Positions 1-43,010 of a DNA stretch of 46,076 bases are shown here, piece after piece (the first letter of the stretch is position 1; every line of letters starts with the position of its first letter). Origin of the DNA: Rubrivivax sp. (GTDB lineage: Bacteria > Pseudomonadota > Gammaproteobacteria > Burkholderiales > Burkholderiaceae_C); the NCBI GenBank assembly GCA_020848515.1, contig JADLIA010000100.1, positions 1 to 46,076 of the forward strand, in the 5' to 3' direction. Made by a program: the position numbers and the translations under genes. The notes under the pieces were generated by a model that had not been told where the DNA came from, did not search any database, and saw only the letters and a program-made list of their open reading frames with translations.

Positions 1-1464
1 CAGCGGCAGGCCATTCCGCTGGCGCTGCAGGCGCACCCCGAGGGCGCCAACGACCTGATGGTCAGCAGCCAGACCGGCAGCGGCAAGACGGCGGCCTTCC
101 TGCTGCCGGTGCTGCACACCCTGCTGGCCATGCAGCGCGACGCCGAGGCGCGCGACAAGGCCGCCTGGGACGCCCAGGTGGCCGAGGCCCTGGCGCGCGG
201 CGAGGCGCCGCCCAGGAAGCCGCGCCGCAAGAACCCGCTCAACCCGCGCCAGTTCAAGCCCGCCGTGCCGGGCGCGCTGGTGCTGTGTCCCACGCGCGAG
301 CTGGCGCAGCAGGTGGCGCGTGACGCCATCGACCTGGTGCGCCACTGCCGCGGCCTGCGCATCGCCAACGTGGTGGGCGGCATGCCCTATGGCCAGCAGA
401 TCGCCCAGCTGCAGAACGCCGCCCTGGTGGTGGCCACGCCGGGTCGCCTGCTGGACTTGCACCGCGGCGGCCAGATCGTGCTCGATCAGGTGCGCTTCCT
501 GGTGGTGGACGAGGCCGACCGCATGCTCGACCTCGGCTTTGCCGACGCCCTGGCCGAAATCCACCAGCTGACCGCCCAGCGCCAGCAGACCATGATGTTC
601 AGCGCCACCTTCGCGGCGCCGATCCAGCAACTGGCGATGCGCGTCATGCACGACGATGGCGCGCGCGTGCAGAAGGTGCAGGTGGCCACGCCGCAGCAAA
701 GCCACGCCAACATCCGCCAGGAGCTGTACTGGGCCGACAGCCCCGAGCACCGCCGTCGCCTGCTGGACTACTGGCTGCGCGATCCGTCGATCGGCCAGGC
801 CATCGTGTTCGCCTGCACCCAGATCGAATGCGACCAGCTGGCCACCGACCTGCAGCAGGCCGGCTTTGCCGCCGTGGCGCTGCACGGTGCGCTCAGCCAG
901 GCGCTGCGCAACCGCCGCCTGCGCGCACTGCGCGAGGGCCAGGTGCAGATTCTGGTGGCCACCGACGTGGCGGCGCGCGGCATCGACGTGCCCAGCATCA
1001 CCCACGTCATCAACTACGGCCTGCCGATGAAGGCCGAGGACTACACGCACCGCATCGGCCGCACCGGCCGCGCCGGCCGCGACGGCCTGGCGGTGACGCT
1101 GGCCGAGTTCCGCGACCGCCGCCGCCTGGCCGACATCGAGACCTATACGCGCCAGCATTTCCGCCCGCTGGTGGTGGCCGGGCTGGAGCCGACCAAGCAC
1201 TTCCCACCCGTCACCGAGCCGCGCGCGCCGCGCAAGCCGGCGCCGCGCGATGCCGGCGCCGGGCGCGGCAAGGGGCCGCGTGGTGCCAGCCGTCCCCATC
1301 GGGATCATCAGGGTGATTTCAGCCCTGCCGCCCGACTGGCGGGCGCGGGCAGCTCTCAAAAGAAAAGCGCTCCGGCTCGACCGGCACGCCCGGCGCCGGC
1401 CGCCGGCCGTGGCCGCGCCGGCGCTGCCGCGCGCCCCTACGCACCGGGGCGCGCCGGCCGCTGA
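1..1464 (+). CDS. DEAD/DEAH-box RNA helicase (RhlE-like), 5' end outside the window
   Basis: Motifs SSQTGSGKTAAFLLP, PTRELAQQ, VVDEADRMLDLGF, SATF, HRIGRTGRAGR; basic low-complexity C-terminus. Frame is open upstream of the listed ORF start (QRQAIPLALQ...). Confidence 0.95.
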   Translation, partial: QRQAIPLALQAHPEGANDLMVSSQTGSGKTAAFLLPVLHTLLAMQRDAEARDKAAWDAQVAEALARGEAPPRKPRRKNPLNPRQFKPAVPGALVLCPTRELAQQVARDAIDLVRHCRGLRIANVVGGMPYGQQIAQLQNAALVVATPGRLLDLHRGGQIVLDQVRFLVVDEADRMLDLGFADALAEIHQLTAQRQQTMMFSATFAAPIQQLAMRVMHDDGARVQKVQVATPQQSHANIRQELYWADSPEHRRRLLDYWLRDPSIGQAIVFACTQIECDQLATDLQQAGFAAVALHGALSQALRNRRLRALREGQVQILVATDVAARGIDVPSITHVINYGLPMKAEDYTHRIGRTGRAGRDGLAVTLAEFRDRRRLADIETYTRQHFRPLVVAGLEPTKHFPPVTEPRAPRKPAPRDAGAGRGKGPRGASRPHRDHQGDFSPAARLAGAGSSQKKSAPARPARPAPAAGRGRAGAAARPYAPGRAGR

Positions 1465-1992: not shown

Positions 1993-3420
1993 TCAGTCGC
2001 GCGCGGCCAGCACGCGCCCCGGGTTCATGATGCCCTGCGGGTCCAGCGCCTGCTTGATGGCGCGCATCAGCGTCAGCGCCACCGGCGACTTGTAGCGCGG
2101 CAGCAGGTGCGCCTTCAGGCTACCGATGCCGTGCTCGGCGCTGATCGAGCCCTGGTGCCGCGCCACGGCGTCGAACACCAGGGTGTTGACGCGGGCTTCC
2201 TGCTGGCGCATGAACTGGGCCGCATCGCCGCCTTCGGGCGCCTGCACGTTGAAGTGCAGGTTGCCGTCGCCCAGGTGACCGAACACGACCAGCCGCACGC
2301 CGGGGATCTCGGCCGTCAGCAGGGCCTCGGTCTCGGCCACGAAGTCGGGCACGCGCGACACCGGCACGGCGATGTCGTGCTTGATGTTCAGGCCTTCCTC
2401 GGCCTGCGCCATCGGGATGCTCTCGCGGATGTGCCACAGCCCTCTGGCCTGGGCGATGCTTTCGGCCACCACGGCGTCGCTCACGCAGCCGGCTTGCAGC
2501 GCGGTTTCCAGCAGTTGCTCGAACTGGGCGCGCGCGTGCGCCTCGCTTTCCAGGTCGGCGCTGTCCAGCAGCACGCACCAGGGGGTGTCGCGCCACAGCG
2601 GCACGCGCATCTGAGGGTAGTGCCGGTCGACCAGGCCGAGGGCGAACTGGCCCATCACCTCGAAGCCGGTCAGCCCCGCGCCCAGGTGGCGGTGCGCCAG
2701 CCCGAGCAGTTCGAGCGCCGCCGCCAGCGAGGGCACGGCGGCCCAGGCGGTCAGCGTGGCGGCGGGGCGCGGGTAGAGCTTCATCGTGGCGGCGGTGATG
2801 ATGCCCAGCGTGCCTTCGCTGCCGATGAACAGGTCGCGCAGGTCGTAGCCGGTGTTGTCCTTGCGCAGGCCCGACAGGCCGTCCCAGACCTCGCCCTGCG
2901 CGGTGACCACCTCCAGGCCCAGGCACAGCTCGCGCGTGTTGCCATAGCGCAGCACCTGCGTGCCGCCGGCATTGGCGCCCAGGTTGCCGCCCAGCATGCA
3001 GCTGCCTTCGGAGCCCAGGCTGAGCGGGTACAGCAAGCCCGCGTCCTCTGCCGTGGCCTGTAGTTTCTGCAGGATGCAGCCGGCCTCGGCCGTGAGCGTC
3101 AGGTTGGCGCGGTCGATGGCGCGCACCGCGTCCATGCGGCCCAGGCTCAGCAGCAGCTGGGTGCCGCTGTCGTCCGGCACCGAGCCGACCGACAAGCCGG
3201 TGTTGCCACTTTGCGGCACGATGGCTACGCCGCGCGCGGCGCAGGCGCGCACCACGGCGGCGACTTCGGCCGTGCTGCCCGGGCGCACCACGGCCAGCGC
3301 GCGGCCCCGCACGCGGCGGCGCCAGTCCTGCTCGTAGGCCGTCAGGTCACCTTCGGTCAGCACATGGGCCGCGCCCACCGTCTGGCGCAGCTGATCCAGC
3401 AAGGGGGTGTCGGTGGTCAT
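1993..3420 (-). CDS. FAD-binding oxidoreductase, GlcD/D-lactate dehydrogenase-like
   Basis: PQSGNTGLSVGSVPDDSG, LGGNLGANAGGTQVLRYGN, IGSEGTLGIITAATMKL, FGHLGDGNLHFNV, SAEHGIGSLK. Confidence 0.92.
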   Translation of the reverse strand: MTTDTPLLDQLRQTVGAAHVLTEGDLTAYEQDWRRRVRGRALAVVRPGSTAEVAAVVRACAARGVAIVPQSGNTGLSVGSVPDDSGTQLLLSLGRMDAVRAIDRANLTLTAEAGCILQKLQATAEDAGLLYPLSLGSEGSCMLGGNLGANAGGTQVLRYGNTRELCLGLEVVTAQGEVWDGLSGLRKDNTGYDLRDLFIGSEGTLGIITAATMKLYPRPAATLTAWAAVPSLAAALELLGLAHRHLGAGLTGFEVMGQFALGLVDRHYPQMRVPLWRDTPWCVLLDSADLESEAHARAQFEQLLETALQAGCVSDAVVAESIAQARGLWHIRESIPMAQAEEGLNIKHDIAVPVSRVPDFVAETEALLTAEIPGVRLVVFGHLGDGNLHFNVQAPEGGDAAQFMRQQEARVNTLVFDAVARHQGSISAEHGIGSLKAHLLPRYKSPVALTLMRAIKQALDPQGIMNPGRVLAARD

Positions 3421-3430
3421 GTCAATAACT

Positions 3431-3480
3431 CCTGAATTGATAGCTGCCAGCGCTTGCCGGGCAAGCGCTGGATGCCGAAA
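3431..3480 (+). repeat. Short palindromic dispersed repeat (SPR) copy
   Basis: TGAATTGATAGCTGCCAGCGCTTGCCGGGCAAGCGCTGGATGCCGAAA; 12-bp perfect stem CCAGCGCTTGCC/GGCAAGCGCTGG. Confidence 0.85.
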
Positions 3481-3888
3481 TCAATGCGAAACCGCGGGGC
3501 CGGCGGCGGCCGCGCGCGCCGCTCGCTGGCGCAGCCGCACCTGCGCCGCACAGGCGGCGAACAGCAGCAGCACCAGCGCCACCTGCGCCAGGGCGCAGCG
3601 CGCCGACACACCGTGGTCGCTGGTGGCGCGCACCACGCCTTCGACGAAGTACAGCCAGACGAACAGCGCCAGGCCGCGACAGGTCTGCATGCGATAGCGC
3701 AGCAGCCCGGGCAGCGCCAGCGCCAGCGGCAGCACCTTCAGGGCCAGCCACGAGCCGCCCGGGCGCAGCGGCGCCAGCCACAGCTCCCACGCCAGGCCGA
3801 GCGCCATCAGCGCCAGCAGGCTGGCGACGGCGACGATGCGGGTGGCCTGCACGGCAGGTGAGGGGTGGGCGGGCATGGGCGGTGGCAT
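3481..3888 (-). CDS. DUF2069-type small membrane protein
   Basis: Four hydrophobic segments; the pattern LRYRMQTCRGLALFVWLYFVEGVVRA resembles DUF2069 proteins. Start chosen at MPPPMPAHP. Confidence 0.7.
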   Translation of the reverse strand: MPPPMPAHPSPAVQATRIVAVASLLALMALGLAWELWLAPLRPGGSWLALKVLPLALALPGLLRYRMQTCRGLALFVWLYFVEGVVRATSDHGVSARCALAQVALVLLLFAACAAQVRLRQRAARAAAAGPAVSH

Positions 3889-5143: not shown

Positions 5144-5160
5144 GAAACATGGCCTGAGCC

Positions 5161-5195
5161 GGCGACCAGCAAGCGCCAGCAGCTATTATTTTTGA
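5161..5195 (-). repeat. SPR copy (half)
   Basis: Minus strand TTCAAAAATAATAGCTGCTGGCGCTTGCTGG. Confidence 0.75.
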
Positions 5196-6289
5196 ACTGA
5201 AGGACGCACTTCGCCCAGCCTGCCGCGGGGCGCCTGGGGCGCCGCGGCCGGTGCCGCCAGCAGGCGGCGCACTGGCGCTGGCAGCCCCAGCGCCGGCCAT
5301 TCGTCGGCGCCGAACCAGCGCCCGTCGGCGTGGCGCAGATCGGTGGCGCGCAGCCGCACGCTGACCGGGTGCAGGTCCAGGTCGCGGTGCGTCAGCACAT
5401 GGCGGCGCGGCGGCTCGGTGACGGCCTGCCCGTGCACCCGCGCCGGCAGGCTCGCCAGCAGGGTCGCCCGATCGTCGAACAGCGGCAGGCAGAACAGGCG
5501 CGCCCAGATGCCGTGCTCGGGCCGCTGCTGCAACCACACGCGGCCCTGCGCGTCGCGCGCCAGCAGCAGCCACAGCTCGAGCCGCTGGCGCGCCACGCGC
5601 CGGCGCTTGACCGGGTAGCGCTCGGGCTGGCCTGCGGCGGCCGCCACGCAGAGGTCGTGCAGCGGGCAGCGCGGGCAGTCGGGGCGGCGCCGGTGGCACA
5701 CGCTGGCACCCAGGTCCATCAGGCCCTGGGTGTAGACCGGCATGGCGCGCCGCAGGTCGGTGCGCGGCAGCAGGGCCTCGGCCTGCACCCACAGGGCCTG
5801 CTCGTGGCGCGCCAGCGCCAGGTCGTGGCCAAAGCCCAGGGCGCGCGTCAGCACGCGCTTGACGTTGCCGTCCAGGATGGCCGCGCGCTCGCCGAAGCAG
5901 AACGCCGCGATCGCCGCCGCCGTCGAGCGGCCGATGCCGGGCAGCCGCGCCAGCTCGGCCGCGCTGGCCGGAAAGCGCCCGCCATGGTGCGCCACCACGT
6001 CGCGCGCGCAGCGGTGCAGGTGGCGCGCACGGCGGTAGTAGCCCAGGCCGCTCCACAGGCCCAGCACCTCGTCCTCGCTGGCCGCGGCCAGCCGTTCGAC
6101 GTCGGGAAAGCGCGCCAGAAAGCGCGGGTAGTAGGCCAGCACCGTGGTCACCTGGGTCTGCTGCAGCATGATTTCCGACAGCCACACGCGATAGGGATCG
6201 CGCGTGCCTTGCCAGGGCAGGTCGTGGCGGCCTTGGCGGCGCTGCCAGGCCATGACGCGCGCGGCCAGCTCGGCGCCGCCGCCGTTCAC
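5186..6289 (-). CDS. mutY: A/G-specific adenine glycosylase MutY
   Basis: DPYRVWLSEIMLQQTQVTTVLAYYPRFL, LPGIGRSTAAAIAAFCFG, four-Cys FeS cluster region CHRRRPDCPRCPLHDLC. GTG start overlaps the upstream TGA (GTGA). Confidence 0.96.
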   Translation of the reverse strand: MNGGGAELAARVMAWQRRQGRHDLPWQGTRDPYRVWLSEIMLQQTQVTTVLAYYPRFLARFPDVERLAAASEDEVLGLWSGLGYYRRARHLHRCARDVVAHHGGRFPASAAELARLPGIGRSTAAAIAAFCFGERAAILDGNVKRVLTRALGFGHDLALARHEQALWVQAEALLPRTDLRRAMPVYTQGLMDLGASVCHRRRPDCPRCPLHDLCVAAAAGQPERYPVKRRRVARQRLELWLLLARDAQGRVWLQQRPEHGIWARLFCLPLFDDRATLLASLPARVHGQAVTEPPRRHVLTHRDLDLHPVSVRLRATDLRHADGRWFGADEWPALGLPAPVRRLLAAPAAAPQAPRGRLGEVRPSVQK

Positions 6290-10979: not shown

Positions 10980-11473
10980 AGGCCGCCGTCCGGCGCCTCG
11001 GCGGCGCCCTGTGTGCTATTTTAATGATAGCTGGTTGCGCACACCAGACGGGCGCAAACGCCCCATTTGACTCGCAAACCAGCCATTGGAGCGGGCGCCT
11101 GGGGCTGACCGTGGCGTCCGAGCCGCCGCAGTCGTACTCGGCCGGTTTTGCGCTCAGCGGCAACGCCCTGGTGGGCGAGCTGATGCTCACCTCGCCCCTG
11201 GGCAGCGCCCTGGCCGTGATGCGCTGGCAGCCCGGTCAGGCGCTGCTGCAGCAGGGCGAGCAGACCGCCCGCTTCGAATCGCTCGACGCGCTGGTGGAGC
11301 AGGTCACCGGCACGCCGCTGCCGGTGCGCGCGCTGTTTGGCTGGCTGCACGGTCAGCCGCAGTCGGTGCCCGGCTGGCAGGCCGACCTGAGCGGTCTGCC
11401 CGACGGGCGGCTGTTCGCCCAGCGCCTGATGCCCCTGCCCACGGCCGAATTGCGGCTGGTGCTGGACCGCTGA
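10976..11473 (+). CDS. lolB: Outer-membrane lipoprotein insertion protein LolB
   Basis: GTG start overlapping the upstream TGA; lipobox LMIAGCAHQ; WSGRLGLTV, LTSPLGSALAVMRW, PVRALFGWLHG; located before ispE. Confidence 0.9.
   Translation: MKAAVRRLGGALCAILMIAGCAHQTGANAPFDSQTSHWSGRLGLTVASEPPQSYSAGFALSGNALVGELMLTSPLGSALAVMRWQPGQALLQQGEQTARFESLDALVEQVTGTPLPVRALFGWLHGQPQSVPGWQADLSGLPDGRLFAQRLMPLPTAELRLVLDR
11012..11045 (+). repeat. SPR copy (partial) inside the lolB signal peptide
   Basis: GTGCTATTTTAATGATAGCTGGTTGCGCACACC. Confidence 0.6.
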
Positions 11474-14351: not shown

Positions 14352-14999
14352 ATGATCAAGCTGTTCGTCGGCCTGGGCAATCCCGGCCCGGAATACGCTG
14401 CCACGCGCCACAACGCCGGCTTCTGGTGGATCGACCAGGTGGCGCGGCAGCTGGGCGTGCGGCTGGTGCCCGAGCGCGCCTTTCATGGTCTGGTGGCGCG
14501 CGCCAGCGTGCAGGGCGCCAGCGTGTGGCTGCTGCAGCCGCAGACCTTCATGAACCTGTCGGGCAAGTCGGTGGCGGCGCTGGCGCGCTTCTACAAGGTG
14601 GCGCCGCAGGAAATCCTGGTGGCGCACGACGAGCTGGATCTGCCGGCCGGCGAGGCCAAGCTCAAGCAGGGCGGCGGCCACGCCGGTCACAACGGTCTGC
14701 GCGACATCCATGCGCAGCTGGGCAGCAGCGACTATTGGCGCCTGCGGCTGGGCATTGGCCATCCGGGAAACCGGCAGGAGGTGGTCGGCTGGGTGCTGAA
14801 GAAGCCGCCGCTGGACGAACAGATCGGCATCGCACAGGCCATAGATCGCGCCGCGCGCGCCTTTGCGCTGCTCGCGGCCGGCGACATGACGGCGGCCACG
14901 CAGGCCATCCACACCTCCAGGCCACCACGCCCCAAGCCACCGCGCAAGCCGCCGCCTTCCCCGGCCGACGCCGGTGCCAGCGAGCGGCCCGATGTCTAG
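14352..14999 (+). CDS. pth: Peptidyl-tRNA hydrolase
   Basis: [67 protein letters not shown] stop lies within the end of the 190-bp repeat. Confidence 0.97.
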
Positions 15000-15185
15000 C
15001 AGACTGTCGGACCTGGAAATCGCCGGCTGCAGATCGACCGCAGCGCCCCTTTCTTGGCTTCGCCGCGTTTCGAGAGCGCCGCCTTTTTCCCCAATGGCTC
15101 GGCTGTTGGGCTGCCTATCCGGCAACAACGGGCCTCGCTGGGGCCGATGCGCGCTGTCGGCGCTCCAAGTCCGACAGCCTCCTGG
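14996..15185 (-). repeat. MITE-like dispersed repeat, copy 1 (inverted relative to copy 2)
   Basis: CTAGCAGACTGTCGGACCTGGAAATCGCCGGCTGCAGATCGACCGCAGCG ... GCTCCAAGTCCGACAGCCTCCTGG; matches the reverse complement of 25590-25781 along its full length, with mismatches. Confidence 0.9.
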
Positions 15186-17948: not shown

Positions 17949-19124
17949 TTATAACGTTTGCCGCGCCACGAACCGCAGCAGCTGGGTGGCCAGATCGGTC
18001 TGCGCGTGCAGGCGCTGGCGGGCCGCCTGTACGCCGCGGCGCCAGGCGGGCAGGTCGGGGGCGGGCAGGGTGCCACCGTCGATGCCGTTCCAGGCGAGGT
18101 GGAACTGGCGCAGGCTGGCCGGCGCTTCCAGCCAGTCCAGAAAGGCGCGCAGCTTGGCGTGGTGGGCGTTGTCCTCGGGTTGCGGGTAGATGTGCCAGAC
18201 CAGGGGCTGGCCGGCCCACAGCGCACGCACCAGCGAGTCTTCGCCGCGCACGAAGTTCAGGTCGCAGGCCCACAGCAGTTCGTCGTAGGCGATTTGCGTG
18301 AACCGCGGCAGGTATGAAATCGATAGCTGCTGGCGCTGACTGGAAGGGCGCTGCAGCCGGTTTTCCTGCTCAAGCACCTGCTCCACCGCCTGCCTGGCGC
18401 GGCCGGCGGTGACCAGCAGGCGCGTCGGTTCGGGCGAGCCGCGCAGCTGCGCGATCCAGGTCGCCAGCGCGGGGGGCTCGTAGCAGAACAGCGAGATCAG
18501 CCGCTCGCCTTGCCAGTCGATGCCTTGCCCGGCCAGCCAGGCGCGGCGATCGAAGGCGGCCTGGCGCGCCGGCAGGTCGTCTTCGCGCAGCAGCCCACCG
18601 GTGGCCGGGGTGAAGCCGGGGTAGAAGAACCACTTGGTCCAGCCGCGGGCGGGCCCCTGCAGCACCGGCGAGGGCAGGCCGTGCATGCGCTCGACGTACC
18701 CCTCGGCGCTCAGGTCCTCGAGGTTGATCCATACCGGTGGTTTCAAGCCTTTGTGGTTCGCAGCGCTTATCCTTTCAGCGCCGGCAGCTATGAATTCAGT
18801 AGCAATCTGGCAGCCGAAGGCTTCCACCCAGACATCGGCCGGCGGCAGCCCGGCCAGCCGCATGGGGTCCAGCGGTCGCGTCCACGGCAGCACCTGCACG
18901 CCGGTCGGGCGTGTGGCCGCGGGCGCCATCCAGTCCAGCGCGCGCGCGTCGTCCACCCACAGGCGCACCTGCTGCGCACGCGCCGCCAGCGCCGTCGCCA
19001 GGCGCCAGCAGACGCCCAGGTCGCCGTGGTTGTCGATGACCTGACAGAAGATGTCCCAGCGCAGCGGGGGGTGGGGTTCGGGCACGCTGGCATTGTGGGG
19101 CAAGGCCCGCCGTGGCGGCGCCAT
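17949..19124 (-). CDS. earP: EF-P arginine rhamnosyltransferase EarP
   Basis: [82 protein letters not shown]; adjacent to efp. Exact start uncertain. Confidence 0.94.
18312..18359 (+). repeat. SPR copy inside earP
   Basis: TATGAAATCGATAGCTGCTGGCGCTGACTGGAAGGGCGCTGCAGCC. Confidence 0.7.
18755..18803 (-). repeat. SPR copy inside earP
   Basis: Minus strand GCTACTGAATTCATAGCTGCCGGCGCTGAAAGGATAAGCGCTGCGAACC. Confidence 0.75.
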
Positions 19125-19149
19125 GGCGTGGCTTCGTACACTGCGCACC

Positions 19150-21126
19150 ATGACCGATGCCCCGGCGCGCGACGACGCGCCGCCCCCGCCACCCGCCGCG
19201 CCGCGCCACCGCCCCGAGCTGCTGGCGCAGGTGGCGGCGCTGCCCGGTCTGCCCGGCGTGTACCGCTACTACGATGCGGCCGACAACGTGCTGTACGTGG
19301 GCAAGGCGCGCAACCTCAAGCGCCGCGTCAGCAGCTACTTTCAGAAAAACCACGGCGGCACGCGCATCGGCCACATGGTCGGCAAGATCGCGCGGCTGGA
19401 AACCACCGTGGTGCGCTCCGAGGCCGAGGCGCTGATTCTGGAAAACAACCTGATCAAGCAGCTGGCGCCCAGATACAACATCCTGTTTCGGGACGACAAG
19501 AGCTACCCCTACCTGAAGATCACCGGCAGCGAAGGCGTGCCGGACCGCGGCGAGGGCGCGCCCCGACCCGAGGCCTACGCGCGCATGACCTACTACCGCG
19601 GCGCCACCGACCGCCGCAGCCGCTACTTCGGTCCCTATCCCAGTGCCTGGGCGGTCAAGGAAACCATCGAGCTTTTGCAAAAGGTGTTTCGCCTGCGCAC
19701 CTGCGAGGACACGGTGTTCGCCCATCGCACGCGGCCCTGCCTGCTCTACCAGATCAAGCGCTGCACCGCGCCCTGCGTGCGGCTGATCGGCCAGGCCGAC
19801 TACGCCGCCGACGTCGCCCAGGCCGAGCGCTTTCTGCGCGGCCAGACGCAGCAGCTGCTGACCGAGATGGAACGGCGCATGATGGCGCACGCCGACGCGC
19901 TGGAGTTCGAGCAGGCGGCGGCGATCCGCAACCAGATCCAGTCGCTGTCGCGCGTGCTGCATCAGCAGGCGGTGGAGGTGGGTGGTGAAGCCGACGTCGA
20001 CATCATCGCCGTCAAGGTGCAGGGCGGACGCGCCTGCGTCAACCTGGCCATGGTGCGCGGTGGGCGCCACCTGGGCGATCGCGCCCACTTTCCCAGTCAG
20101 GTCGAAGATGCGCACGCACTGGCCGGCGAGCGCGAGGACGCCGAGCTCACCAGCGTCGAGGCGCAGGTGCTGGACGCCTTCATCGCCCAGCACTACCTGG
20201 CGCTGCCGACGCCGCCCCAGCTGATCACCAGCGAACCGGTGACGCGCACGCTGCTGCAGGCCTTGTCGGACAAGGAAGAGCGCAGGATCAGCGCCACCCA
20301 TGCGCCGCGCGGCCAGCGCCGCGTATGGCTGGAGATGGCGCAGCAGAACGCCGCCCTGCAGCTGGCGCGCCTGCTGGCCGAAGAAGGCTCGCAGCAGGCG
20401 CGCACGCGGGCGCTGGCCGAGGCGCTGGAGCTGCCGACCGAGGCGCTGGATCAACTGCGCATCGAATGCTTCGACATCAGCCACACCGCGGGCGAGGCCA
20501 CGCAGGCCAGTTGCGTGGTGTTCGAAGGCCATCGCATGGCCAGCAGCGAGTACCGGCGCTACAAGATCGACGGCATCACCCCCGGCGACGACTACGCCGC
20601 CATGCGCCAGGTGCTGCAGCGGCGCTACGGCAAGATCGCCGAGGCGCTGCGCGAACAGGGCAACGCCGCCTCCGTGCGCATGCCCGATCTGGTGCTGGTC
20701 GATGGCGGCAAGGGCCAGGTCAGCGTGGCGCGCGAAGTGTTCGAGGCGCTGGCGCTCGATCTGTCGCTGATCGTCGGCGTCGAAAAAGGCGAAGGCCGCA
20801 AGGTCGGGCTGGAAGAGCTGGTGTTTGCCGACGGCCGGCCCAAGGTCTATCTGGGCCACGACTCGGCCGCGCTGATGCTGGTGGCGCAGATCCGCGACGA
20901 GGCGCACCGCTTCGCCATCACCGGCATGCGGGCGCAGCGCGCCAAGGTGCGCGTGGGCGGCAGCCAGCTGGAAGACATCCCCGGCGTCGGGCCCCGCAAG
21001 CGTGCGCGCCTGCTGCAGCGCTTTGGTGGCGTGCGCGGGGTGGAGGCCGCCAGCATCGACGATCTGGCCACGGTCGAAGGCATCTCGCGTGCGCTGGCCG
21101 AGGACATCTACCGTGCGCTGCATTGA
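19150..21126 (+). CDS. uvrC: Excinuclease ABC subunit C
   Basis: [32 protein letters not shown] (GIY-YIG), [33 protein letters not shown], Hh[15 protein letters not shown]. Confidence 0.98.
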
Positions 21127-21165
21127 CCGGATTGCGCATCAAATCGGCATCTGGCGCAGGGGTAG

Positions 21166-21198
21166 TAAGCGCAGGCAGCTATCGTTTACATAGCATGC
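21166..21198 (-). repeat. SPR copy (half) between uvrC and pgsA
   Basis: Minus strand TATGTAAACGATAGCTGCCTGCGCTTACTACC. Confidence 0.7.
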
Positions 21199-21253
21199 AG
21201 GGGCTTGGCGGAGCACGCTGCGTGCCCGCAAGCCGCGTGACACAATCGCCGCC

Positions 21254-25589: not shown

Positions 25590-25781
25590 CCTAGGAGGCT
25601 GTCGGGCTTGGAGCGCCGAAAGCGAAGATCGGCCCCAGCGAGACCAGTTCTTGCCGGATTTGCAGCCCAATAGCCGAGCAATTGGACAAAAAGCCGGTGC
25701 TTTCGAAGAGCGGCGAAGCCAAAAATGGGCCGCTGCGGTCGATTTGCAGCCGGCGATTTCCAAGTCCGACAGCCTCCTAGG
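25590..25781 (+). repeat. MITE-like dispersed repeat, copy 2
   Basis: CCTAGGAGGCTGTCGGGCTTGGA ... TCCAAGTCCGACAGCCTCCTAGG terminal inverted repeat (1 mismatch); flanking CTAG on both sides; no ORF. Confidence 0.9.
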
Positions 25782-25838: not shown

Positions 25839-25915
25839 TGGGGTGGCTGATGGGACTCGAACCCACGACGACAGGAATCACAATCCTGGACTCTACCAAC
25901 TGAGCTACAGCCACC
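25839..25915 (-). tRNA. tRNA-His (GTG anticodon), G-1 and CCA encoded
   Basis: Minus strand GGTGGCTGTAGCTCAGTTGGTAGAGTCCAGGATTGTGATTCCTG...GGGTTCGAGTCCCATCAGCCACCCCA. Confidence 0.96.
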
Positions 25916-26950: not shown

Positions 26951-27077
26951 GGTGCCCGAGGCGATCGCCGGCGCCCTGCCTTGCGCGCCACCGCAGGCGC
27001 ACGCATCGTGGGCCTGGTCGGCTGGCAGCAGGGTGTGCGGTGGATCGGCGCCGGGCAGAACGAAAAAGGCTTGCGAG

Positions 27078-27114
27078 GCGCGTCAGGCAAGCGCCAGACG
27101 CTATTGATAATATA
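27078..27114 (-). repeat. SPR copy (half)
   Basis: Minus strand CTATATTATCAATAGCGTCTGGCGCTTGCCTGACGCGCC. Confidence 0.65.
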
Positions 27115-27288
27115 GTGCAGAGTTTCGCGCCATATGGAACATCAAACCGTGTCTTTTCGCCCATGATGTCTCGTTGCAAATCCGCGCCATAGCGGAGCTG
27201 CTGCTGTGGTTTGCGCCTCATCCTGGCCAGCAATCCACCGGTTTTGTTTGTTCCATCCAGCACGCAACGCCACACGAGCCATCGGGCT

Positions 27289-29069: not shown

Positions 29070-29133
29070 AAAAATGCCTGCAGCGCTTGTCCCATGTGCG
29101 CCAGCAGCTATCAATAAAATAGCGCCTGGGGCG
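29070..29133 (-). repeat. SPR copy (full length)
   Basis: Minus strand GCGCTATTTTATTGATAGCTGCTGGCGCACATGGGACAAGCGCTGCAGGCATTTTTG. Confidence 0.85.
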
Positions 29134-38254: not shown

Positions 38255-38994
38255 GCCGTCCCGCCGGCCCCCCGGGCGCAGCGGCGCCGCTGATCCGCCT
38301 GCAGGATGTGGGCGTGCGCTTCGGCCGGGTGCAGGCGCTGCAGGGCGTGGGGCTGGAGATCGCCGCCGGCGAGTGCGTGGCCCTGATCGGCGGCAACGGC
38401 AGCGGCAAGAGCACGCTGCTGCGGGTGATCCACGGTCTGATCGCGCCGACCGAGGGCCAGCTGGTGGTGCCGGCGCGCCGGGCGCAGGCGATGCTGTTTC
38501 AGCGCCCCTGGATGATGCGCACCACGGTGCTGCGCAACGTCGCGCTCGGGCTGTGGCTGCGCGGCCTGCCGTGGCGCCAGGCGCAGGAGCGCGCGTTGCG
38601 GGCGCTGGAGCGCGTGCAACTGGCCGAACTGGCGTCGCGCCGCGCGCCCGGCCTGTCGGGCGGGCAGCAGCAGCGCGTGGCGCTGGCGCGTGCCTGGGCG
38701 CAGCAGGCGCAACTGCTGTTGCTGGACGAGCCCACGGCCAGCCTGGACCCGCACGCCAGGCTCGAGGTCGAGGCGCTGATGCGCGCGTTCACCGGCACGG
38801 CGCCCGACGCGGCGCCGTTGACCATGGTGTTCGCCAGCCACCACCTGGGCCAGGTCAGGCGCCTGGCGCAGCGGGTCATCTGTCTGGACCAGGGGCGCGT
38901 GCTGGCCGATCTGCCTGTGGCACAGTTCTTCGACCACGCGCGGCTGAGCTCGGTGGCGCCGGTGGCGGCGGCCTTCGTGCAAGGAGAAATGTGA
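38251..38994 (+). CDS. ABC transporter ATP-binding protein, TupC-like
   Basis: Walker A GGNGSGKSTLLRVIHGL, signature LSGGQQQRVALARAW, Walker B LLLLDEPTASLDP; ATGA overlap with the upstream permease. Confidence 0.9.
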   Translation: MSRPAGPPGAAAPLIRLQDVGVRFGRVQALQGVGLEIAAGECVALIGGNGSGKSTLLRVIHGLIAPTEGQLVVPARRAQAMLFQRPWMMRTTVLRNVALGLWLRGLPWRQAQERALRALERVQLAELASRRAPGLSGGQQQRVALARAWAQQAQLLLLDEPTASLDPHARLEVEALMRAFTGTAPDAAPLTMVFASHHLGQVRRLAQRVICLDQGRVLADLPVAQFFDHARLSSVAPVAAAFVQGEM

Positions 38995-39821
38995 TGCAAA
39001 AATTCAGAAACTTTTGGCCTCTGGCGCTTTTGCAGACTGCGCTGGCAGCTATCTTAACGATAGCATTTCCGGTGGCCTGGGCGCAAACCATCGTGATGGC
39101 CTCGACCACCTCGACCGAACAGTCGGGGTTGTTTGCCCACCTGCTGCCGCAGTTCCGCCAGGCCAGCGGCATCGACGTCAAGGTGGTGGCGGTGGGCACC
39201 GGGCAGGCGCTGGACATCGCCCGGCGCGGCGACGCCGATGTGCTGTTCGTGCATGACCCGAAGGCCGAGGAGCAGTTCGTCACCGACGGCTGGGGCCTCA
39301 AGCGCCACCCGGTCATGTACAACGACTTCGTCCTGGTCGGCCCGCGCAGCGACCCGGCCGGGGCGCGCGGCCGCGACATCGTGCAGGCCATGCGGCAGTT
39401 GGCGGGGGCGCACGCGCCCTTCATTTCGCGCGGCGACAAAAGCGGCACCCACAGCGCCGAACTGCGCTACTGGGCCCAGGCGGGCCTGACCGAAGCGCGC
39501 GGGCGTGGCTATCGCGAATGCGGTTGCGGCATGGGGCCGGCGCTGAACATGGCTGCCGCCAGCGGCGCCTACGTGCTGGCCGACCGGGGCACTTGGCTCA
39601 ACTTCAGGAACCGGGCCGACCTGGCAATCCTGGTCGAAGGCGACCCGCGCCTGTTCAATCCCTACGGCGTGCTGGTGGTCAACCCGGCACGCCACCCGCA
39701 GGTCAAGGCCGCCGAGGCACAGAAGTTTGTCGACTGGGTGACGTCGCCCGCCGGTCAGGCCGCCATCGCCAGCTACCGCATCGGGGGCCAGGCGTTGTTT
39801 TTCCCGGACGCGCGACCTTGA
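38994..39821 (+). CDS. ABC transporter substrate-binding protein, tungstate TupA-like
   Basis: IVMASTTSTEQSGLFAHLLPQFRQASGIDVKVVAVGTGQALDIARRGDADVLFVHDPKAEEQFV; PFISRGDKSGTHSAELRYW; TTSTEQSGL is typical of TupA/WtpA-type proteins. Confidence 0.9.
   Translation: MQKFRNFWPLALLQTALAAILTIAFPVAWAQTIVMASTTSTEQSGLFAHLLPQFRQASGIDVKVVAVGTGQALDIARRGDADVLFVHDPKAEEQFVTDGWGLKRHPVMYNDFVLVGPRSDPAGARGRDIVQAMRQLAGAHAPFISRGDKSGTHSAELRYWAQAGLTEARGRGYRECGCGMGPALNMAAASGAYVLADRGTWLNFRNRADLAILVEGDPRLFNPYGVLVVNPARHPQVKAAEAQKFVDWVTSPAGQAAIASYRIGGQALFFPDARP
39009..39066 (-). repeat. SPR copy (full length) encoding the TupA-like signal peptide
   Basis: Minus strand GCTATCGTTAAGATAGCTGCCAGCGCAGTCTGCAAAAGCGCCAGAGGCCAAAAG. 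Confidence 0.8.
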
Positions 39822-42905: not shown

Positions 42906-42952
42906 GGGGCAAAGCAAATGCTCAGGCGGCGCCGGGGCGCCGCCGTAACTCA

Positions 42953-43010
42953 TGTTTTGATAGCTGTTGGCGCTTGATGTGCAAGCGCCGAAGGCCCATT
43001 TTGCCTTGAA
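42953..43010 (+). repeat. SPR copy (full length) between modB and modA
   Basis: TGTTTTGATAGCTGTTGGCGCTTGATGTGCAAGCGCCGAAGGCCCATTTTGCC. Confidence 0.85.

Follow-up and report, generated by a model that had tools for sequence, protein, structure and literature searches.

Two copies of a dispersed two-palindrome DNA motif in the earP gene of a Rubrivivax sp.

Introduction

The earP gene of a Rubrivivax sp., encoding the EF-P arginine rhamnosyltransferase (17949–19151, minus strand), contains two stretches that look like copies of a repeat. How did they come to lie in the reading frame of an enzyme? An earlier note on this DNA had described them as in-frame insertions in tolerant loops. We have examined them in the window, by which we mean the whole 46,076-nucleotide stretch of DNA that was analysed, in the rest of the genome, and in related bacteria.

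Results

The earP product has 400 amino acids and matches Pfam EarP over the whole protein (E = 9.2e-121; 403.8 bits, with a cut-off of 25), and it matches solved EarP structures at 1e-70. The invariant acidic residues of P. putida EarP, D13, D17, and E273, are located in the DNxGD and RGEDS motifs (PMC5615199). In the EarP alignments, both of these motifs are aligned and invariant. The frame remains open across both repeat segments, as had been claimed.

A covariance model was built from an ungapped 63-column alignment of 25 copies of the motif from the same genome, including the first of the two earP copies. The model matches earP at 18750–18812 (site 1; plus strand, antisense to earP; 59.8 bits, E = 9.3e-18) and, in the opposite orientation, at 18302–18364 (site 2; minus strand, sense to earP; 44.6 bits, E = 9.3e-13). 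The copy at site 2 is outside the training set and still gives this E value. The two segments originally noticed, 18755–18803 and 18312–18359, fall inside these matches and belong to one repeat family. The motif is about 55 bp long and has the layout AAA...GCGC-N11-GCGC-N3-CAGCTAT-N8-TAGC, which is two adjacent imperfect palindromes at a fixed distance. The sequence GATAGCTGC is observed five times in the window, compared with 0.24 expected, and 430 kb of the genome yield 117 matches above 10 bits to a 63-column weight matrix, where reversed and block-shuffled controls yield none. Part of the encoded peptide (F-I/V-A; L-x-I-x-x-L-P) occurs in outgroup EarP too, which might suggest that ordinary EarP codons resemble a repeat by coincidence. 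However, motif-bearing genomes use rare codons of low GC3 here. Coincidence was ruled out by the E values of 9e-18 and 9e-13 and the zero matches in the reversed and shuffled controls, and we give it a negligible probability.

The window contains 11 copies by the covariance model at E ≤ 4e-5. A copy lies just upstream of the called gene 1993–3420 (minus strand), at 3419–3481 (minus strand, E = 1.1e-17). Intergenic copies are found at 29070–29132 (plus strand, E = 6.2e-17), 42939–43001 (minus strand, E = 4.3e-14), and 11006–11068 (minus strand, E = 2.7e-13). Two further copies lie just downstream of uvrC (19150–21126), at 21141–21203 (plus strand, E = 1.6e-11), and between convergent genes, at 27063–27125 (plus strand, E = 1.3e-08). 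A gene probably encoding a substrate-binding protein (38994–39821, plus strand) has a copy at its 5′ end, at 39011–39073 (plus strand, E = 1.1e-12); with translation from an ATG near 38994, this copy would supply the hydrophobic core of the signal peptide (MQKFRNFWPLALLQTALAAILTIAFPVAWAQ). Weaker matches are seen near the C-terminus of the ORF 58–1464 (plus strand), at 1315–1377 (plus strand, E = 1.2e-06), and across the 3′ end of the gene 5186–6289 (minus strand), at 5145–5207 (plus strand, E = 4e-05). The window also carries an inverted repeat of 188 nt, with arms at 14996–15183 and 25593–25780 that are 86% identical; the second arm is near a tRNA gene (25842–25914), and a third, diverged copy is found in L124 at 18647–18834.

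The whole genome, in an incomplete assembly, has at least 150 copies of the motif, and the 96 copies in 430 kb correspond to about 220 per Mb. With placement resting on the seeded codon-based gene call made in this analysis, 23 of the 96 are wholly in genes, 15 lie across gene ends, and 58 are intergenic, in a genome where 90% of the DNA is coding. Most in-gene copies are read in one of only two frames out of six, with 13 of 18 sense copies at offset 1 and 10 of 13 antisense copies at offset 0, although stops are often absent from the remaining frames as well. The encoded peptides are rich in alanine. At a survey threshold of E ≤ 1e-6, 53 of the 151 genomes sampled from the window's family have the motif; another 59 genomes of the order, of which 58 represent 49 other families, have none. 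The copy number within the genus, counted up to 150 per genome, is bimodal, with at least 78 copies in 15 genomes and 0–32 in 14. Exact matches to GCGCTTN7AAGCGCN2GCAGCTAT, some in several copies, are also found in 43 stretches from viral contigs of IMG/VR (L433–L475), where they may lie in viral DNA or in host flanks.

With two inverted repeats, the motif could form hairpins that act in transcripts, as a terminator or in RNA stability or regulation. Many copies lie near gene ends, mostly with convergent or co-oriented neighbours, and intergenic copies have convergent neighbours in 13 cases vs divergent neighbours in 2 (p = 0.007). However, the loop lengths are fixed, the inner stem pairs are often broken, and both orientations occur in genes. 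Covariation was tested twice: among 196 copies, there is none at any stem pair, the observed pairing being the expectation from column composition, and dependence between columns is confined to adjacent or near-adjacent bases. No Rfam family matches the motif. The RNA-structure reading was rejected for lack of covariation, and a role in transcripts is very unlikely. Rigid spacing together with the absence of stem covariation is what is expected for a DNA–protein site rather than for an RNA hairpin.

What do the two copies encode in EarP? Both lie between conserved blocks (VWVEAFGC and others), as the earlier note had stated. In the AlphaFold model of EarP (mean pLDDT 88.5), site 1 corresponds to the helix 96–112 and the loop after it, and site 2 to the strand 254–258 together with a loop in which residues 246–249 have a pLDDT below 50. 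The sites do tolerate change; at site 2, the loop is poorly ordered, and two relatives (G168 and G169) have extra repeat residues. However, the assignment to tolerant loops is incomplete, since the element also covers the helix and the strand, which is part of the core. The extra residues at the site 2 position number about 39 in L087 (G168) and about 56 in L088 (G169), and they resemble other common repeats (TPALPQRGRE; FPRKQES..DSRLRGNDEG).

The lengths of both sites were compared in 98 EarP sequences. The site 1 stretch is mostly 18 amino acids in outgroups within the family, typically 22 in motif-bearing genera, and 26 in the window's genus, a difference of +4 to +8, whereas the element would encode 19–21 amino acids. 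The measured span of site 2 is typically 37 amino acids in motif-bearing proteins vs 26–36 in outgroups. In alignments with the P. putida and P. aeruginosa orthologues, site 1 has 8 additional residues, and site 2 has no gap. Thus, the description of the segments as in-frame insertions is right only in part: site 1 has a partial gain in length, and site 2 has none relative to Pseudomonas.

At least 12 other genera share both copies, with codons, orientation, and frame all the same, and the copies are thus old; the site 1 copy is present in about 20 genera. In 80 named EarP records, 16 have both copies, 8 have one, and 56 have neither. The copies are found in Ottowia beijingensis, several Polaromonas, Acidovorax, Diaphorobacter nitroreducens, and some Rhodoferax and Curvibacter, and they are missing, among these 80 records, from Delftia acidovorans, Variovorax paradoxus, the Limnohabitans records shown, and Comamonas composti. 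This distribution suggests that both copies arose in earP when the clade was young and that most have been retained since. The first acquisition may have been by point changes, or by a partial insertion with deletion.

The motif is also found in other conserved genes. In recN, it lies over the conserved PRAI(E/D)RVASGG, and PRAI(E/D)RVASGGELSR aligns without gaps even with Deinococcus RecN. The codons in motif-rich species are GCT ATT GAA AGA GTA GCA TCC and similar, with the rare AGA, GTA, and GCA, whereas motif-poor species write the same stretch mostly in GC-ending codons. In this genome, only 0.7% of valine codons are GTA, and only 0.4% of arginine codons are AGA. For the in-gene copies taken together, the core has a GC3 of 51%, and the flanking codons have one of 89% (p = 5e-55). 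An SbmA-like transporter and a formate dehydrogenase-like subunit have the motif at the same codons throughout the genus, and in motif-less species, the corresponding stretch is about equal in length. One in-gene copy lies in a large protein of the close relative G155, which we take from its sequence to be alpha-2-macroglobulin-like; G000 does not have this copy, and the length there is the same (GFKSPTGADLTGAKSYQFNSGGPF vs GFQSPTGAPWTGARSYSFHTGGPF). Hence, in recN and in this G155/G000 gene pair, the motif is there without insertion. The result is different for FemAB, where the left half of the motif covers the ancestral P-I-A-S-S-L codons and the motif-bearing proteins are about 12–14 residues longer than 30 sequences from other families. 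The added length of FemAB (+12 to +14) and of earP site 1 (+4 to +8) indicates that some insertion has occurred, and this counts against maintenance in situ as the full account. Also counting against it, the excess of identical codons in the motif regions is modest, and FemAB has none.

A mobile palindromic element inserted in frame, as implied by the earlier note, like a Rickettsia palindromic element or an intragenic REP, would be a selfish cassette in two tolerant places, either decaying or being domesticated. The motif is indeed dispersed, palindrome-bearing, and present in many copies, about a quarter of them in genes in open frames, and FemAB and earP site 1 exceed the outgroups in length. 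However, in comparisons of G165 with G174 (about 90% identical), where few copies can be aligned, and of G000 with G155 (87–94% identical), the alignable copies keep their places, and apart from some sites that are too diverged to judge, no clean insertion or excision is seen. The length is also unchanged in recN and, relative to Pseudomonas, at earP site 2. The core is strongly constrained: in 45 ungapped directed comparisons of orthologous copies, the mismatch is 0–7% in core columns 29–32, 36–41, and 52, 30–45% in many spacer columns, and 13.8% in the flanks. This is not the pattern expected of dead insertions, although homogenisation between copies by gene conversion could also keep the core alike. 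Furthermore, FemAB and FdsB have each gained about 28–30 amino acids, cleanly and in frame, from another repeat, which is GC-rich and about 75 bp long (L134, 11603–11719, and L128, 2139–2255, on contigs C174 and C21 of this genome); events of this kind can thus be detected here. The FemAB and FdsB copies of that repeat are 85% identical, lie in opposite orientations, and are not in near relatives. We therefore consider a mobile element unlikely.

The scores at six in-gene sites track genome copy number (Spearman 0.84, 29 genomes, kinship ignored), and genomes that lost the motif family lost the motif in every gene tested. This genome-wide pattern fits the loss of a putative trans-acting factor. 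It also fits a DNA uptake sequence, for which motif-bearing DNA would be taken up preferentially and recombination would spread the motif in place by substitution. Like the uptake sequences of Neisseria and Haemophilus, the motif is restricted to a clade, has copies in genes, and appears to have spread by substitution in situ (recN and the G155/G000 pair). However, known DNA uptake sequences have cores of 9–12 bp and occur about once per kb, while the motif, at about 55 bp and about 220 per Mb, is much longer and sparser. Uptake is, in our estimation, quite unlikely.

Discussion

The only direct precedent that we found in the literature is a 2017 survey of spaced motif pairs (PMC5217627), in which the pair GCTTAT(N)5AAGCG of Acidovorax ebreus TPSY, with 114 copies, 94% of them intergenic, is listed as unexplained. 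By its published description, this pair is the inner palindrome of our motif, with identical spacing and in the same clade. In agreement, GCTTAT and AAGCG at exactly 5-base spacing are present in A1 members, such as L034, and the majority of copies lie between genes or at their ends. The pair ATAGCT(N)22CAAAAG of Polaromonas naphthalenivorans CJ2 (125 copies, 18 in genes) we infer to be a variant of the motif. The same survey gives Rhodoferax ferrireducens as the genome with the most spaced motif pairs, and it finds that the pairs are often between convergent genes (PMC5217627). Thus, the motif family is partly on record, without a name or function. The survey reports the pentamer pairs only; the full length, the two-palindrome layout, the core constraint, the codon effect, and the conserved in-gene positions are added here.

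Rickettsia palindromic elements are insertions of about 150 bp in protein genes (reviewed in PMC10969869). The motif is similar in being dispersed, palindrome-containing, and located in genes in open frames (23 of 96 wholly in genes), but it is shorter. Its length change is absent in recN and, relative to Pseudomonas, at earP site 2, and FemAB and earP site 1 show a partial one. REP/BIME sequences with RAYT transposases are short, abundant, and palindromic, and they lie mainly between genes, with some in genes (PMC3733652, PMC2817692). The motif has these features too, but the REP end tag GTAG/CGTC is not found in it, column 50 being split between A and G inside the second palindrome, and unlike REP, it has a conserved core and fixed spacing without compensatory stem changes. 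Hence, membership in either class fails on the features tested, clean insertion for the Rickettsia elements and the tag and compensatory stems for REP.

The explanation that we favour, and consider probable, is that the motif is a DNA site of fixed geometry maintained in situ, most likely bound by a putative protein. Binding and the role of the motif are what we infer from the sequence comparisons. A putative DNA-binding protein, specific to one part of the Comamonadaceae, would recognise the motif, and its role may be REP-like, in the organisation or topology of the chromosome. The motif would then be kept where it stands by selection acting on the DNA itself, and in coding DNA it would be fitted into the existing frame by codon choice and tolerated changes of residues. 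More tentatively, and with somewhat less than an even chance of being right as a whole, we propose a site of about 55 bp with two palindromes, present in hundreds of copies per chromosome, that serves a putative DNA-binding system, overrides codon choice, as in recN and earP, and decays genome-wide where the system is lost.

Repeats within bacterial genes are usually taken as insertions. Here, a genome-wide DNA signal has seemingly been imposed on existing codons, including those of the recN signature region, even where this means using rare codons. Since one genus holds both motif-rich and motif-poor species, the putative binding factor should be findable by comparison of gene content. If this proposal is correct, a DNA signal at the level of the chromosome shapes part of the protein sequence and the codon usage in these bacteria.
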